Positions 37,904 to 45,780 of a stretch of DNA of 64,000 nt are shown one piece after another; position 1 is the stretch's first letter; every line of letters starts with the position of its first letter. Source of the DNA: Leptolyngbya iicbica LK (GTDB lineage: Bacteria; Cyanobacteriota; Cyanobacteriia; Phormidesmidales; Phormidesmidaceae); assembly GCF_004212215.1 (NCBI RefSeq), contig NZ_QVFV01000001.1, forward strand, positions 1,002,814-1,066,813. The letters run 5' to 3'. Position numbers and translations under genes: made by a program. Under the pieces are notes generated by a model. The model did no database searches, was not told where the DNA came from, and was given only the letters and a program-made list of their open reading frames with translations.

Positions 37904-39073
37904 ATGGCCATCAAACAATTGCGCTCCTTATCCGGCACCCAATTTTGGCTGCTGCTGGTCGGTTTGTTGGTGCTGGCCGGGGGCTCGTTTTGGCTGGTGC
38001 GATCGCGGCTGCAAGCGCAACAAGCAGAGGTGGCTGAAACGGCAGCGCCCGCTCCCCAGCGAGTACAAGTGGCGGCACTGGGACGGGTTGAACCAGCAGG
38101 CCGCGTCGTCGATGTCGTCGCGGGCGAAAGTGGTCGCCTGGGCCAACTAGAAGTGGCGGAAGGGGAGGTCGTGCAAGCCGAGCAGATCCTGGCCTATTTA
38201 GACATTTATGCGGTGCGTCGCGCCGAACGGGACTTCGCCGCCAGTCAACTCGCCGAAGCCGAGGCGCTGCTGGTGGCCCAAACCGAGGCCGGGCAAGCCA
38301 CCATTCAAGAAGCAGAAACGCGGATCAGCCAAATTGATCAACCGCAACTGGCCGCTATTGAAGCCCAACAGCGCACCATCGAAAGCCTGCAAGCTGACCT
38401 GCAAATTGCCGAGGCCGATTTGGCCCGCTTTGAAGCGCTGTATGCCGATGGGGCGATCGCCCAGCAAGAGCGCGATCGCCAGCGGGCCACCGTGCAACGT
38501 CTGCGGGAAGAAGTGTTAAGTGCCCAAGCCCGCAAACAAGAACTCACCGTCGCCCGGACCACCAGTCTGGCGAACGCCGACGCCCAGGTCAACAGCCAGA
38601 CCGCCAATTTGCAACTGGCCCAAGCCCAGGTGAATGTCGAGTCTGCCACCCAAAACCTGGCCCTAGCCGAAGCCCGCCTGGAGCAGACCATCGTTCGGGC
38701 TCCCCGCGCCGGGCAAATCTTGCAATTGTATGCGGAACCGGGCGAAGCGGTGACCACTAACGCCCCCATTTTGGCGCTGGGGGACACCCAGCAAATGTAT
38801 GTCGTGGCAGAAGTCTACGAAACGGATGTGTCGCTGGTAGAGCCCGGGCAACGAGCCACCATCACCAGCCGCAACGGGGCCTTTGCTGACGTGCTGACAG
38901 GCACGGTAGAACAGGTGGGTCTGCAAATTTTCAAAAATGACGTGCTGGACGATGACCCCGCCGCCAACGCCGATGCCCGCGTGGTGGAGGTGCGGGTGCG
39001 GGTCGATCAGAGTGAGGTGATTGACGGCCTCACGAATTTGCAGGTGGATGTGGTGATTGATGTGGAGTCGTAG
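37904..39073 (+). CDS. devB: DevB-type HlyD family membrane fusion protein
   Basis: This periplasmic adaptor links the inner membrane exporter to an outer membrane TolC-like channel. The 389-residue protein has one N-terminal membrane helix (about 13-31), a lipoyl half (GRVEPAGRVVDV), a long alpha-helical coiled-coil hairpin (about 95-240, rich in Gln/Ala/Glu) and a second lipoyl half with VRAPRAGQILQLYAEPGE. The beta-barrel follows with EVYETDVSLVEPGQ. In Anabaena DevBCA exports heterocyst glycolipids, and related sets in non-heterocystous strains have other cargo. It is the first gene of a four-gene operon and its stop abuts the next ATG. Confidence 0.92.
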   Translation: MAIKQLRSLSGTQFWLLLVGLLVLAGGSFWLVRSRLQAQQAEVAETAAPAPQRVQVAALGRVEPAGRVVDVVAGESGRLGQLEVAEGEVVQAEQILAYLDIYAVRRAERDFAASQLAEAEALLVAQTEAGQATIQEAETRISQIDQPQLAAIEAQQRTIESLQADLQIAEADLARFEALYADGAIAQQERDRQRATVQRLREEVLSAQARKQELTVARTTSLANADAQVNSQTANLQLAQAQVNVESATQNLALAEARLEQTIVRAPRAGQILQLYAEPGEAVTTNAPILALGDTQQMYVVAEVYETDVSLVEPGQRATITSRNGAFADVLTGTVEQVGLQIFKNDVLDDDPAANADARVVEVRVRVDQSEVIDGLTNLQVDVVIDVES

Positions 39074-40213
39074 ATGCAACGAACGCCCCTCGCCCTCTTA
39101 AACCTGTTGCATGAAAAGACCCGGCTGATTGTCGCGATCGCGGGGGTGGCCTTTGCCGTGCTGCTGATTTTTATGAACCTGGGGTTCCAGGGGGCGCTGC
39201 TCGCCACGACCGTCACTTTCTATGAGCAACTGCAAGCGGATATTTTTCTCACCTCGCCCGAATCTCTCGAAATCAGTTCCACCAAAGCCTTTCCTCGCAC
39301 TCGACTGGTGCAGATCGCCGGGGTAGAAGGGGTCGAGCGGGCCATGCCGCTGTACATGGAATATCTGCTGTGGCGGAATCCTGAGACGCGCATCAGCCGC
39401 GCCATGTTTGTGTTTGGCATCAATCCCCAAGACCCCGTGTTTGGGATGCCCGAGTTGCAAACGCGAGCCGCGCAGCAAGTGCTCGAAACGCCCAACACCG
39501 TGCTGATCGATCGCCTCTCTCGCGAAGAATTTGGTCCCCAGACTGTGGGCTTGGAAACGGAGGCCGATCGCCGCCGCGTCACCATTGGCGGGCAATACAC
39601 CCTGGGGGGCGGATTCGCGGCTGATGGCACCCTGATCATGAGCGACCAGAACTTTATTCGCTTTTTTGCGCCGCGCCCCTTTAGCCAGATCAACCTGGGG
39701 CTCATTCAAGTGGAGTCAGGGGCCAATGTGGACGCGATCGCCACCACCCTGCGTCGCTTGCTGCCCGCTGATGTGCAAGTTCTGACCCGCCGCGAAATGA
39801 TTCAAAACGATTTGCAGTTCTGGCTCCAAACCACCGCGATCGGCTTCATTTTTACCCTCGGCGTGATTGTGTCCTTCATCGTCGGCACGGTGATTGTGTA
39901 TCAGATTCTCTACACCGACATCCGCGACCACATGACCGAATACGCCACCCTCAAAGCCATGGGCTATAGCGGTCGCTATTTATTCGGCGTCGTCCTCCAA
40001 GAAGCCGTCATTCTGGCCATTGCCGGATTTGTGCCCGGCTGGGTGGTCGCTGTGGGGCTATATCGCCTCACCCGCGAGGCGACCAATCTACCGATGATCA
40101 TGACCGTCAACCGCCTGGTGTTGGTCTTAGCCTTGACCGTAGTCATGTGCAGCCTCTCGGGGCTCATTTCCGTGCGCCGCGCCGTCACTGCCGACCCAGC
40201 GGAGGTGTTTTAG
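39074..40213 (+). CDS. devC: DevC-type FtsX-like ABC permease, first copy
   Basis: This is a MacB/FtsX-type permease of 379 residues. One membrane helix at about 17-40 is followed by a large periplasmic domain and three helices near the C-terminus. It begins with RTPLALLNLLHEKTR and ends with SGLISVRRAVTADPAEVF, both typical of DevC. The ATG immediately follows the devB stop. A second, paralogous permease gene follows after 2 bases, so the transporter may be a permease heterodimer. Confidence 0.92.
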   Translation: MQRTPLALLNLLHEKTRLIVAIAGVAFAVLLIFMNLGFQGALLATTVTFYEQLQADIFLTSPESLEISSTKAFPRTRLVQIAGVEGVERAMPLYMEYLLWRNPETRISRAMFVFGINPQDPVFGMPELQTRAAQQVLETPNTVLIDRLSREEFGPQTVGLETEADRRRVTIGGQYTLGGGFAADGTLIMSDQNFIRFFAPRPFSQINLGLIQVESGANVDAIATTLRRLLPADVQVLTRREMIQNDLQFWLQTTAIGFIFTLGVIVSFIVGTVIVYQILYTDIRDHMTEYATLKAMGYSGRYLFGVVLQEAVILAIAGFVPGWVVAVGLYRLTREATNLPMIMTVNRLVLVLALTVVMCSLSGLISVRRAVTADPAEVF

Positions 40214-40215
40214 CC

Positions 40216-41400
40216 ATGCTGACTTGGTGGAAACGGACGCCCCTGGCGTGGCTCAACCTGACCCACGATCGCCGCAAATTTGCCACCTCTATGGCCGGAG
40301 TGGGGTTTGCCGTGTTGCTGATGTTCCTGTTCACCGGCTTTCAAAACGCCCTTTACGACAGCCAAGTCCAGCTCATCAACCGCCTCAACGCCGACATCAT
40401 CATCATCAATCGGCTTAAAAACAACATGTTTGTGCCGTCCGCTTTTGCGCGGCGACGCCTCTATCAGGCTCAGGCGTTGGCCGGAGTCAAGGCCGCTTAT
40501 CCGATGTATATGAGTGATGTGCGCTGGCGCAATCCTGAGACTCGCAAGACGCGGCCCGTGCGCGTCCTCGCCTTTAACCTGGCCGATCCGGTATTGCCCT
40601 TGCCGGGCGTCACCGCGAATCTGGCAGCCCTGCGGCTGCCCAATACGGCGTTAATTGACACCCGCGCCCGGGCCGAGATTGGCCCCCGCGAGGCGGGCAT
40701 TCAGTCCGAGTTGGCGGATCGAGCCATCAAAATTGTCGGCACCTTTAGTCTGGGCACCGACTTTGCCGCGGGCAACGGCAACCTGATCATGAGCGACCAA
40801 AACTTTTTGCGCTATTTTGCCAATCGGGGTCCCGAGGAGGATGAGCGCAGTTTTGCGACGGTAGATATTGGTCTGGTGCAAGTGCAGCCGGGGATCAACG
40901 TGGATGAGATGGTGCAAGCGTTGAGCGACTTTTTGCCCAATGATGTGAAGGTGCTGCGGCGATCTGGTCCCGGCAATAGCTTCGAGGCACAAGAGCGCGA
41001 CTACTGGCGCGAAAGTACCAACATTGCCTTTGTGTTTTCGCTGTTGACGGTGATGAGTTTTTTTGTTGGCATCATTCTCGTTTACCAGATTTTGTATACC
41101 GATGTGGCCGATCACTGGCAGGAATATGCCACCCTCAAGGCCATGGGCTACAGCAATCGCTTTTTGTTCACCGTTGTCATTCAAGAAGCGTTGATTCTCT
41201 CGGTGCTGGGCTTCATTCCGGGCCTTCTGGTGAGCCGCTTGCTTTACACAGCTGCCAGCAATGCCATCGGGCTCGTGTTTCTCATGACGCCGGGCCGCAT
41301 CGCCCAAATGTATCTGGCGACGTTCGCCATGTGTTTGATTTCCGGGGCGATCGCCGTGCGCAAGGTCCAGTCCACTGATCCTGCTGAGGTATTTGGCTAA
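40216..41400 (+). CDS. devC: DevC-type FtsX-like ABC permease, second copy
   Basis: This 394-residue paralogue of the preceding gene shares RTPLAWLNLTHDRRKFATSM at the start, the MSDQNFLRYFA region and the KVQSTDPAEVFG end. It differs in the periplasmic middle. The longer frame from 40147 adds 23 residues in the previous gene, so the ATG at 40216, just after the devC stop, is preferred. Its TAA overlaps the devA ATG by one base, indicating coupling. Two different permeases argue for an asymmetric complex, though alternate use is possible. Confidence 0.92.
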   Translation: MLTWWKRTPLAWLNLTHDRRKFATSMAGVGFAVLLMFLFTGFQNALYDSQVQLINRLNADIIIINRLKNNMFVPSAFARRRLYQAQALAGVKAAYPMYMSDVRWRNPETRKTRPVRVLAFNLADPVLPLPGVTANLAALRLPNTALIDTRARAEIGPREAGIQSELADRAIKIVGTFSLGTDFAAGNGNLIMSDQNFLRYFANRGPEEDERSFATVDIGLVQVQPGINVDEMVQALSDFLPNDVKVLRRSGPGNSFEAQERDYWRESTNIAFVFSLLTVMSFFVGIILVYQILYTDVADHWQEYATLKAMGYSNRFLFTVVIQEALILSVLGFIPGLLVSRLLYTAASNAIGLVFLMTPGRIAQMYLATFAMCLISGAIAVRKVQSTDPAEVFG

Positions 41401-42188
41401 TGGCAAATTCCCCATCACCTGAGTCCAGCGCTTCGGGCACCGTCACTTCGACGTCCAGCGCTGTGCAGATTCGCAATCTCAACTACTCGTTTGGGCTGGG
41501 TGATCTCACGAAGCAGGTCTTGTTCGACATCAATTTAGACCTGCCCCGCGGCCAAATTGTGATTATGACGGGACCGTCTGGCTCCGGCAAAACGACGCTA
41601 CTGACGCTGATTGGCGCACTACGCACCACCCACGAAGGCAGCCTGCAAGTGCTCGATCAGGAAATTGTGGGGCTCAGTCGCCGCCGACTGGTGAGCGTAC
41701 GCCGCCAGATCGGCTTCATTTTTCAGGCGCACAATCTGTTTGCATCCCTCACCGCCTCCCAGAATGTGGAAATGGCGGTGGAATTACAGGGGCAGTACGG
41801 GACCAAGCGATCGCAATCCGTGGAAATTCTCAGCGAACTGGGCCTCAGCGATCGCGTCGACTACAAGCCCGACTCCCTTTCTGGCGGGCAAAAGCAGCGA
41901 GTCGCGATCGCCCGCGCCCTGGTGAACCAGCCGCCCTTAATTCTCGCCGACGAACCCACCGCCGCCCTGGATAAGAAATCGGGTCGCGACGTCGTCACCC
42001 TCATGCAAAAACTCGCCAAAGAAGAGAACCGCACCATTCTCATGGTCACCCACGACAACCGCATTCTGGATGTGGCCGATCGCATCATCAACCTGGTGGA
42101 CGGTCGCCTGGAATCTGACGATACCCTCGATACCTTTGTCAGCACCCACGATCCCAAAAGTCTTGATCGCCGCATGTTCATCATGTAG
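41400..42188 (+). CDS. devA: DevA-type ABC transporter ATP-binding protein
   Basis: This 262-residue ATPase drives the DevBC exporter. Walker A GPSGSGKT is at 58-65, the ABC signature LSGGQ at 160-164, and Walker B ILADEPT at 181-187. Residues 95-110 contain the RRQIGFIFQAHNLF Q-loop stretch of the MacB/LolD class. The first 20 residues are a Ser/Thr-rich extension. It overlaps the second devC by one base and closes the operon. Confidence 0.93.
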   Translation: MANSPSPESSASGTVTSTSSAVQIRNLNYSFGLGDLTKQVLFDINLDLPRGQIVIMTGPSGSGKTTLLTLIGALRTTHEGSLQVLDQEIVGLSRRRLVSVRRQIGFIFQAHNLFASLTASQNVEMAVELQGQYGTKRSQSVEILSELGLSDRVDYKPDSLSGGQKQRVAIARALVNQPPLILADEPTAALDKKSGRDVVTLMQKLAKEENRTILMVTHDNRILDVADRIINLVDGRLESDDTLDTFVSTHDPKSLDRRMFIM

Positions 42189-42580
42189 AGCGCCCAATCT
42201 GTTATGGCAGGCGCGCTGCCGAGTAACTACCGGCAACGAGCCCAGCAGTCGGTAAATTATCTGACGTGATAGGTTACCAGCATCACTGTGGCCAGCTGTC
42301 CATTAGCGTAAAAATGGATTCGTACAGCAAACCTGTAGCCTCTGGCCTATCTGCGGGCATCTTAAGCCCATTCCGTCTTTCTCCCCTCGGGGATTGATCG
42401 CTAGCTTGAGCCAGCCAGCCGGCCCAGCGCGATCGGCGTCTACCGACCCCCCAACCCCGTTCGCCATGCTGACCCCCATCGTTGGCCTCCGCAGTTGCTG
42501 GAATGCCCGTTTCCAGACTGCCAAGGCAAGCGGCGGGGCTGACGTTTCGTTACGGTTTTGCCCCGCCATTCACTAGCTTA
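42189..42580. other. Spacer before the permease-kinase gene
   Basis: This 392-base region holds no recognisable gene. A 27-codon frame at about 42311 (ATGGATTCGTACAGC start) and an 88-codon minus-strand frame are both without support. No strong hairpin was seen. The open frame of the kinase extends into this region to a TTG at 42482, without a ribosome site. Confidence 0.45.
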
Positions 42581-45448
42581 ATGACTGCCAGCCCGCCACC
42601 CATTTCTCGCTTACCGCGTAGCCTCAGTTCATTTGAAACTTGGGGCTTTGGCTTAACCGGTTTGCTGCTGTGGCTCGGCATCGCCCCGGCTATGCAAATC
42701 GAATTAGGCTGGCAAGCCCTCGCAGTCTGGCTACCCGGCACGGTGGTCGGCATGTTGATTAATCTGCAAGTGCAACGGTTGGGCCAACAATGGGCGGACT
42801 TGGCGGGGGGCACCCCCAGCTATCTGAGTCGGTTATGGCCGGAGGCTCCCTGGTTGGCGACCTATGGCGCGCTGGGCTACTACATCAGCTGGGTGGCCGT
42901 GTTGCCGGTGAATGCGATCGTGCTGACCGATTTGGTGCAGGCCAATCTCGCTCCCTTTGGTATTGACTGTCCTACCGTCCCGTTACAGGTGGGGTTTACC
43001 GCGATCGCCTTTATCGTGGCCTTTAGTGGCACCCGGGCGTTGGGCGTATTGCATTTATTTTTTGTCGTCCCCGCTGTCTCTCTCGTCTTGCTCTTTTGCC
43101 TGCAAGGCATTGGCTGGGTCGCGCTCTCGCAAACCGTGTCCGAAATCACCTGGGGCACCTTTGCGATCGGCGACTGGGCCAAGTGGTATGTCGTCGCCAG
43201 CTATGCCGTCTATGCCTGCGAAAGTGGCGCGGCCTTTGTCGCCGACAGCCGCTATCCGCAAAAAACGCTGCAAATTTTACCGATCGCCGCCGCGCTCATT
43301 CCCATCGTTTATCTAGTGGGCAGTTGGCTCTTGCTGCAGTTGGGCTCTGCCGATGCCGACATCACCACCCCCTATGAGCAGCTGCTAGCCGCCAGTCCCT
43401 TTTGGGGTGAAGGGGCAGCGTTTGTGGTGACGTTTTTGCTCGCGTCGGCGAGTTTGCTGAGCTGTGCCACAGCGGTCTCCAACAGCCCTCGGATGCTCTA
43501 CCAACTGTCCCTCGATGGCCAGTTGCCGCCCGTATTTGCCCAGGTCTCGCGCCAGGGCATTTTGGGCGTCGGCTTACTGGTGACCATGATGCTGAGCATC
43601 GCCTTTCTCTGGTGGGGCGACATCGCTCAGATTGTCTTTGTCACCGGACTCGGCTGGTTAGTCTCGTTTGTCATCTTTCACGGGGGGCTCTGGCGGCAGC
43701 GGCAGCAAGCCTATGTGCGCTGGGCGCGGGCTTCGCTAGTCTTTGCCATCCTCGAAGGGCTGATCGTCATGGTCGGCGGCATCGCCTGGAACAGCTTCGA
43801 TCTGGTGTTGGGGTTGTTGCTACCTTTGGGCATTTGGGCGATTTGCCAACTCGTCGGGCTGATCCCAGCCGCTGGGTGGCACTGGGGAGAGCGCGATCGC
43901 CCTTTCTCCCATACCCTCAATGCCCCTCAACAAGACTGGGCCCTGGTGCAAATTGGCGGGCTGATCGGGTTGCTCAGCGGGGCCATGACGGTGAGTTGGT
44001 TCATCCATGGTCAAATCGATCGCTTGCCGCTCACCAATCAGGTCAATGTCTTGGTGGTGGTGCTGATGATTGGCGCCGCCGTGGGAGTGGCGATCGCCGG
44101 ATGGACGACCCTGCCCCAAATCACCCTGATTGGGGCCGCCCGGGAACAAGCCGAGCAATTTTTCAACATGGCCGCCGATAGTATTCTCGTCTTGCAGACC
44201 GACGGCACCATTCTGCAAGCGAATGCCGCCAGTCAATCCCTATTTCAATCCGATGAGGCGGCTTTGCAAGGGCGATCGCTGTACGCCCTGTTACCCGACC
44301 TGCGCCCCACCGCCGACGTACGTGGCCCCACGATCAATGTGCCCCTCACCGTTCAGCTAGCCAGCCACACCCTCGAAGTCACCCTGTCTAACGCGATGGT
44401 TGATCCGGTTAGTGACGTTCCCACCCCGACTGAACAGCTGGTCGCGGTCATTCGTGATATCACCGAGCGCCAAGCTGCCGAAGATGCGCTGCGCCAAAAA
44501 GCCACCGAACTGCAACAGCTCCTCACTCGCCTCACCCAAACTCAAAGCCAACTCGTCCAAGCCGAAAAGATGTCGAGCCTGGGGCAACTGGTCGCCGGGG
44601 TCGCCCACGAAATCAACAATCCGCTCTCCTTTATCGCTGGCAACATTGACTTTGCTCAGGACTATGCGCTGGATCTGATGCAGGCGATCGAGGTGTATCA
44701 AAAGACCTATCCCAACCCGCCAGCCAATGTCACCCAGACGCTCAGCCGCCTGGATGTTGATTTTCTCTGCAAAGACTTTCCCAAACTGCTGGCATCTATG
44801 CAGGATGGCTCCCAGCGTATTCTCAGCATTGTGCAAAGCTTGAAAAACTTTTCCCGTCATGAAGAATCCCCCACCAAGGAGGTCAATCTCTATCACGGCC
44901 TGGAAAGCTCGCTTGTCATTTTGCGCAATCGATTAAAGGCCAGTGGCCCTCGCCCCGAAATCAAGGTCGTCCAGCAGTTAGCGCCGCTGCCCCTGGTGGA
45001 ATGCTTTCCTTCGGCGGTCAACCAAGTGCTGATGAACCTGCTGGTGAATGCGATCGACGCCCTGGAATCAGTGGCGCTGAACGAGACCGACACCCCCACC
45101 ATCACTATCACCGGCCAACCGCAAACCTACGACAATGTGCCAGGGGTCGCCCTCACCGTTGCGGACAATGGCCCTGGCATCCCGGAGCATTTGCGCGATC
45201 GCCTCTGCGATCCGTTTTTTACCACCAAGCCCATTGGCAAAGGCACCGGACTGGGCCTTGCCATCAGCTATCAGGTCATTGTGGACAACCATCAGGGGCG
45301 TTTCACCATTGAGAGCGAACCCGGTCAGGGCGCCCAATTTCACATCTGGTTACCACAGTCGTTACAGTCCCGCCCCCCAAGCGCGCCGCTCACTGACCCG
45401 CCCTCTCAAACGGCAGCAGGCGTCGCCGCGACTGAAGCGGGCTCGTAG
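42581..45448 (+). CDS. APC-type permease / PAS / histidine kinase fusion
   Basis: One 955-residue polypeptide joins a transporter to a sensor kinase. Residues 20-510 hold about 14 membrane helices, with [20 protein letters not shown] (301-320) typical of amino acid/polyamine/organocation transporters. A PAS domain follows (about 524-630, with [20 protein letters not shown]), then a short coiled coil. The kinase has an H-box His676 in [12 protein letters not shown], an N-box with Asn814, Asn819 and Asn823, G1 DNGPGIP (862-868), and G2 [11 protein letters not shown] (886-896). All catalytic landmarks are intact. The ATG at 42581 leads directly into the membrane part; the TTG start at 42482 would add 33 residues. 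No response regulator is adjacent, so its partner lies elsewhere. Its substrate and signal are unknown. Confidence 0.9.
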
Positions 45449-45780
45449 AGATATTCAAACCAGTTGCCATCGGGGTCTTTGCCGTAGAAAGAGGCCGTGC
45501 CATCCCGATGCTCGTGAATTTCGGTAACAAAGACCCCGTCAGCTTTGAGGCGAGCATAGGCAGTATCGACTTCGGCGCGATCGCTAAACACAAAGCCAAA
45601 ATGCGGGCCCGCCTGTTCATAATTCGGGCTGAGTAGGGCCAGACCATCTTCCCCCGCTTTGACGTAAGCCCAATCTTTGTCATGCCAGGCGACTTCCATC
45701 CCTAAGCCCTGGTAAAACGTCACCGCCCGATCAATGTCTTCTACACAAATGGCTACATGGCCGAGACGAGAGGGTTTCAT
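45406..45780 (-). CDS. VOC family (glyoxalase-like) protein
   Basis: This 124-residue protein is a vicinal-oxygen-chelate superfamily member with the glyoxalase fold. It has LGHVAICVEDIDRAVTFYQ at the start, with the metal His near residue 8, and the C-terminal [13 protein letters not shown] motif with an acidic ligand. It may be a lactoylglutathione lyase or a dioxygenase-like relative; the metal ligands alone do not decide. It is convergent with the permease-kinase gene, overlapping its last 43 bases. Confidence 0.85.
   Translation of the reverse strand: MKPSRLGHVAICVEDIDRAVTFYQGLGMEVAWHDKDWAYVKAGEDGLALLSPNYEQAGPHFGFVFSDRAEVDTAYARLKADGVFVTEIHEHRDGTASFYGKDPDGNWFEYLYEPASVAATPAAV

Follow-up and report, generated by a model that had tools for sequence, protein, structure and literature searches.

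To our knowledge, described fusions of a transporter with a kinase are few and are mostly built on SLC5 or Amt domains. The APC permease LysP regulates CadC through interaction and not through fusion. As comparison systems we used the SLC5-STAC kinases CbrA and CrbS (PMC13022988, PMC5715377, PMC9100948) and the Kuenenia ammonium transporter-histidine kinase, an ammonium sensor kinase (PMC5764959). A search of the open-access literature brought up no account of an APC-kinase fusion in cyanobacteria. The window analyzed here, a stretch of 64,000 nucleotides from Leptolyngbya iicbica LK, contains one gene of this kind (42581–45448, + strand; 955 amino acids), delimited by its open reading frame, Pfam matches and an orthologue, that encodes an APC-like membrane module followed by PAS, HisKA and HATPase_c domains. 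Our preferred reading, which we hold with a probability of roughly 0.6, is that the product is a receptor histidine kinase whose APC-fold transporter module was recruited as the sensor, be it as a transceptor or as a pure receptor.

Starting from the ATG at 42581, 955 codons are open without interruption; upstream, the frame stays open to a TTG at 42482, and the alignment of homologues begins at the ATG. The open reading frame, Pfam and the hydrophobicity profile bore out the original prediction of one intact frame encoding about 14 APC-type helices, a PAS domain and a HisKA/HATPase core. The HisKA phospho-acceptor helix (PF00512, residues 667–696; 44579–44668, + strand) carries the phospho-acceptor His676 (CAC at 44606–44608) within AHEINNP. 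The HATPase_c ATP-binding domain (PF02518, E 3.2e-23, residues 812–926; 45014–45358, + strand) contains the N-box, G1 (DNGPGIP) and G2 in translation, so that the earlier assignment of His676 and of all three boxes held. Judged by these sequence features, the phospho-acceptor His together with the HATPase boxes, the window protein is a HisKA sensor histidine kinase, and a loss of the His in homologues, considered beforehand, did not occur, as it was retained in 76/76 kinase members of the family. The PAS domain was placed at residues ~525–626 (44153–44458, + strand) on the basis of a Pfam PAS_4 match at 532–574 and a PAS-like order of strands and helices in the model.

The APC-like sensory module itself spans residues 9–516 (42605–44128, + strand), with 14 predicted transmembrane (TM) helices, as delineated by the family profile, hydrophobicity and fold matches. 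The profile averaged over homologues displayed 14 hydrophobic helices with Lys and Arg residues mostly in the loops after even-numbered helices, pointing to an N-in/C-in topology. Family alignment, motifs and structural matches define a 12-TM APC core at residues 17–426 (42629–43858, + strand); the structural matches stop near residue 435 and leave helices 13 and 14 uncovered. These two are predicted to form an extra TM13-TM14 hairpin outside the core (residues 449–509; 43925–44107, + strand), with model helices at 449–479 and 484–509, in line with hydrophobicity and the positive-inside profile. The window member matched Pfam AA_permease weakly (E 2.7e-4, under the curated cut-off), while the best family member matched AA_permease_2 (PF13520) at 2e-19 and three fused copies passed the Pfam cut-off for the latter. 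A profile-profile alignment (hhalign) of the module with ordinary cyanobacterial APC permeases gave a probability of 98.9%. Foldseek searches with the module model returned 45 matches at E<=0.001, those listed all being APC-superfamily structures, with KimA, BasC, AdiC, ApcT, LysP, LATs and NKCC1 among those named, and VIA-align yielded Z values of about 18–21 over residues ~19–435 (19–21 for KimA, AdiC, BasC and LAT structures). The AlphaFold models were built from six-row alignments and are of low confidence (mean pLDDT 51.7 and 42.8), so that pocket geometry and the helix leading from TM14 to PAS are not reliable in them. At the family level, the module is by homology and predicted fold clearly a member of the APC superfamily. 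Two further host proteins of ~780–810 amino acids (G000:C1:338172-339260 and G000:C1:140092-141171) also match AA_permease_2 and have the look of cation-chloride-cotransporter-type APC proteins.

Searching with a profile built from 19 modules, we detected the module in 73 of the 390 Cyanobacteriia genomes sampled, representing 47 of 159 genera; the fusion is conserved across genera, which the original prediction had named as support, with a patchy distribution. The host genome harbors one copy, and four of the five others in its genus have none. Genomes sampled from the phylum's other classes (n = 38) lacked the module, no plasmid-borne homologues were detected, and a contig scan restricted to close relatives gave cyanobacterial matches alone. 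Full-length members scored >500 bits, the best ordinary permease ~55 bits. In each of the 82 full-length copies extracted, the module is N-terminal in a longer frame, and none of the 82 is a stand-alone permease. The outputs, classified by sequence motifs and, for representatives, by Pfam, comprise 76 histidine kinases, three GGDEF-EAL proteins (loci L086, L087 and L136) and two SpoIIE phosphatases, with one copy cut by a contig end. Both SpoIIE-type proteins have the order module, PAS and phosphatase (L030:5941-8766 in UBA8803; L031:5965-8724 in Limnofasciculus baicalensis). The kinases fall into 64 AHEI-type (26 without PAS) and 12 SHEL-type proteins, several of the latter being hybrids with receiver domains. 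About half of the family has a PAS-sized insertion between module and kinase, called by linker length in most homologues and confirmed by Pfam for representatives. On the module tree, the output class changed in three steps, twice to SpoIIE and once to GGDEF-EAL. Recombination with several output types typically identifies a module as a sensor, or input, domain; the kinase is only one of the outputs that this one carries, a point overlooked in the original prediction. Judged by sequence, the module forms a separate family that recurs across cyanobacteria on different signalling outputs. Stop-interrupted copies at G252:C1, G192:C1 and G143:C55 appear to be decaying pseudogenes.

In APC permeases, the GSGIF motif in TM1 binds the carboxylate of the amino acid. 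Its absence from the first helix of the window protein, remarked on from the start, extends to the entire family (0/82 full-length members with GSGIF), such that the TM1 substrate motif by which a functional amino-acid permease would be recognized is missing. In the window protein, G-L-L-L-W around residues 27–31 replaces GSGIF, with an uncertain residue-to-residue correspondence between the two. The TM1 motif differs by clade, GLLLW in most and GHxxW or GPPGW elsewhere, as expected of a tuned pocket, and this counts for the receptor reading. The TM6 motif YACES includes Glu214, retained in 98% of members; in the family alignment the TM8 motif R304/Y307/D312 is preserved, and W31, G76 and G77 are likewise nearly invariant. 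Since TM6 Glu214 and the TM8 motif are retained and the TM1 motif is changed, an altered pocket has probably been kept in the module: of the preserved pocket named beforehand as support, the TM6 and TM8 motifs are present, whereas the TM1 part is not a classical amino-acid site. As first suspected, a role as sensor is more likely for the transporter half than one as carrier, because this half is always fused, has lost GSGIF and has its helix register fixed to the kinase (see below). The alternative would be a transporter that still carries its substrate across the membrane, with the attached kinase reporting the flux, as has been suggested for histidine and CbrA. Such a role would agree with the APC fold and the preserved TM6 and TM8 core motifs, and the SLC5 part of CbrA is reported to mediate histidine uptake (PMC13022988); yet the family-wide loss of GSGIF, the lack of any stand-alone member among the copies extracted and the coupling of some modules to GGDEF-EAL or SpoIIE outputs make a flux reporter unlikely, albeit a candidate to be taken seriously.

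If the module acts as a receptor, its ligand would be a small molecule, most likely an amino acid or a compound resembling one, that binds in the 12-TM core between TM1 and TM6, upon which the bundle would rock against the scaffold. This motion would be passed on to the TM13-TM14 hairpin, the exit motif WTxLPQ and a helical coiled coil; in the window protein, the helix would act through PAS on the DHp helix and so alter both the autophosphorylation of His676 and phosphotransfer from His676 to an unlinked response regulator. We infer these steps, from ligand binding and ligand class via bundle rocking and the TM13-14 relay to control of His676, as well as the direction of the kinase response. 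In the original prediction, binding or transport of a substrate may set kinase activity directly, by which uptake of amino acids or polyamines would be monitored. The cue might also be a physical or ionic one (K+, membrane state, pH) instead of an organic solute, the APC fold then being a scaffold. The top structural match was indeed KimA (Z 21.2), which transports K+ and belongs to the APC superfamily, and the Na-K-Cl cotransporter NKCC1 matched the module model as well, so an amino-acid ligand does not follow from the fold; moreover, TM1 has bulky Leu and Trp residues where amino-acid carriers have Gly. However, LAT, AdiC and BasC were tied with KimA (within 1 Z), the sequence profiles favour amino-acid permeases and the clade-variable TM1 loop fits different organic ligands, for which reasons we consider an ionic or physical cue rather improbable.

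How the module could be coupled to its output is best seen at the membrane exit. The exit motif WTTLPQ (WTxLPQ in the family; residues 508–513; 44102–44119, + strand), with W508 present in 82/82 members, leads into a cytoplasmic signalling helix from TM14 to PAS (residues ~511–532; 44111–44176, + strand) that is predicted with low confidence. The distance from W508 to the phospho-acceptor His in the 26 AHEI-type kinases without PAS is 48 (n = 14), 55 (n = 10) or 62 (n = 2) residues, each value being 6 modulo 7; in the five SHEL-type kinases without PAS, it amounts to 57 (n = 4) or 64 (n = 1) residues, both 1 modulo 7. The heptad phase of linker hydrophobicity in PAS-less kinases is constant across these lengths. 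On the tree, the 48- and 55-residue groups are distinct clades and the two 62-residue linkers belong to separate lineages, so that one inherited length is not the explanation. About four independent length changes have kept the register each time, for which a simple estimate, made without a formal test, gives a chance of ~(1/7)^4. As the lengths within each kinase type differ by whole heptads, there is direct sequence evidence in the PAS-less kinases for a register-preserving coiled coil, i.e., an unbroken helix that connects the transporter fold with the kinase. Since PAS lies between membrane and kinase in the window protein, the heptad argument holds directly for the PAS-less relatives alone; helical coupling of module and kinase, with PAS in the path, would apply here by analogy.

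PAS could be the main sensor in the window protein, which we count against the receptor reading. Taken further, the module would be a mere anchor or dimerization platform and PAS the real sensor, an idea that draws on the PAS-sized insertions in the window protein and in about half of the family. It is contradicted by the 31 PAS-less kinases, in which module and DHp are joined strictly at spacings of whole heptads, and an anchor would need neither 14 helices nor near-invariant core residues nor the constraint observed: compared with the Halomicronema sp. CCY15110 orthologue, dN was 0.067 and dS 0.69 for the module, and 0.076 and 0.84 for the kinase, the resulting dN/dS of ~0.1 indicating strong purifying selection on both halves. 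We therefore regard an anchor role as very unlikely. The reading as a membrane receptor, in turn, is favoured because the modules are N-terminal in 82/82 members, are portable between outputs, keep the heptad register in PAS-less kinases, have lost GSGIF and retain Glu214, and because module and kinase are constrained alike.

The orthologue at locus L028 shares 87% identity and has an unchanged frame. In Halomicronema sp. CCY15110, the neighbours in common with the window gene are ABC exporter genes on the 5' side and glyoxalase, phosphoglycerate-mutase-like and PFK genes on the 3' side. Since the gene in CCY15110 is fused in the identical frame and gene order, and the same fusion occurs in 73 genomes of many families, a chimeric gene, frameshift or assembly join between permease and kinase, against which the original prediction had cautioned, can be dismissed as having virtually no chance. 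The convergent glyoxalase-like gene (45406–45780, − strand) overlaps the 3'-terminal ~43 bases of the kinase gene, and comparable overlaps were seen at loci L028 and L067. On the 5' side (37904–42188), the window encodes an HlyD-type adaptor, two adjoining DevC-like permeases and an ABC ATPase, putative labels given by sequence appearance; their order is kept in CCY15110.

In line with the original prediction, the genes lying within 4 kb of the window gene included no response regulator, and no neighbour of the module was found to be conserved family-wide. At loci L095 and L124, a single-receiver protein of 127–129 residues adjoins the module gene; in the latter (L124:3488-12751), three APC-PAS-kinase genes in tandem are followed by genes for a 127-residue single receiver and for receiver-kinases. 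SHEL-type members are often followed by a receiver-kinase gene. In the PAS-less SHEL clade, an adenylation-thiolation-reductase enzyme is encoded immediately upstream in 5/5 genera (L102:5505-8531, L104:2800-5883, L109:9595-12675, L110:9714-13988 and L114:374-2830). These neighbours are mutually orthologous (57–66% identity), and the one at L110 carries a complete alanine racemase in fusion. For this clade, and not beyond it, such a neighbour points to a ligand derived from an amino acid; the window protein belongs to a different clade. A more far-reaching and rather doubtful proposal would be that the module represents an undescribed portable APC-derived receptor of cyanobacteria, one clade of which forms a self-contained cassette: the adenylation-thiolation-reductase enzyme would make an amino-acid-derived signal, the neighbouring APC-kinase-receiver protein would detect it and relay it to the adjacent receiver-kinase, with the window protein, as a relative, sensing a similar small molecule.

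If the receptor reading is true, an APC-fold input with fixed helix register would offer a clean system for studying the conversion of a transporter into a receptor and the way in which its movement leads to phosphorylation, and many cyanobacterial signalling proteins of unknown input would gain a candidate amino-acid or metabolite sense. CbrA, CrbS and RpuS resemble the window protein in having a LeuT-type transporter domain N-terminal to PAS/DHp/CA parts in one polypeptide. However, theirs is an SLC5 domain (SSS family, 13 TM) with a cytoplasmic four-helix STAC domain, whereas the window family combines an APC fold of 14 TM helices with an exit straight into a heptad-phased helix and also carries GGDEF-EAL and SpoIIE outputs. 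The Pfam matches were to AA_permease families with none to SSF (SLC5/SSS), and the full window protein gave no Pfam match to STAC; in PAS-less homologues, W508 and His are only 48–64 residues apart. Because transporter family and domain content differ, we rule out membership in the SLC5-STAC (CbrA) family. In Kuenenia Ks-Amt5, too, a transporter fold serves as the sensor of a histidine kinase to which it is fused, but the fold is Amt/Rh and the ligand ammonium. AdiC, BasC, ApcT, LysP and KimA share the 12-TM APC core, the TM6 Glu and the TM8 motif, yet are stand-alone carriers without a TM13-14 signalling hairpin or fused kinase, and bacterial amino-acid APC permeases typically carry the GSGIF-type TM1 motif that the window family lacks. 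Ssy1, the yeast SPS receptor, also evolved from an APC-family transporter into a receptor; it is eukaryotic, signals via Ptr3/Ssy5, for which release of a C-terminal latch has been proposed, and has no fused kinase. The best reading by analogy is that the window protein would work like CbrA or Ssy1 while being a member of neither family, and an APC-fold input that appears common to kinases, c-di-GMP enzymes and a phosphatase would add a new variant to the transporter-derived sensor kinases.
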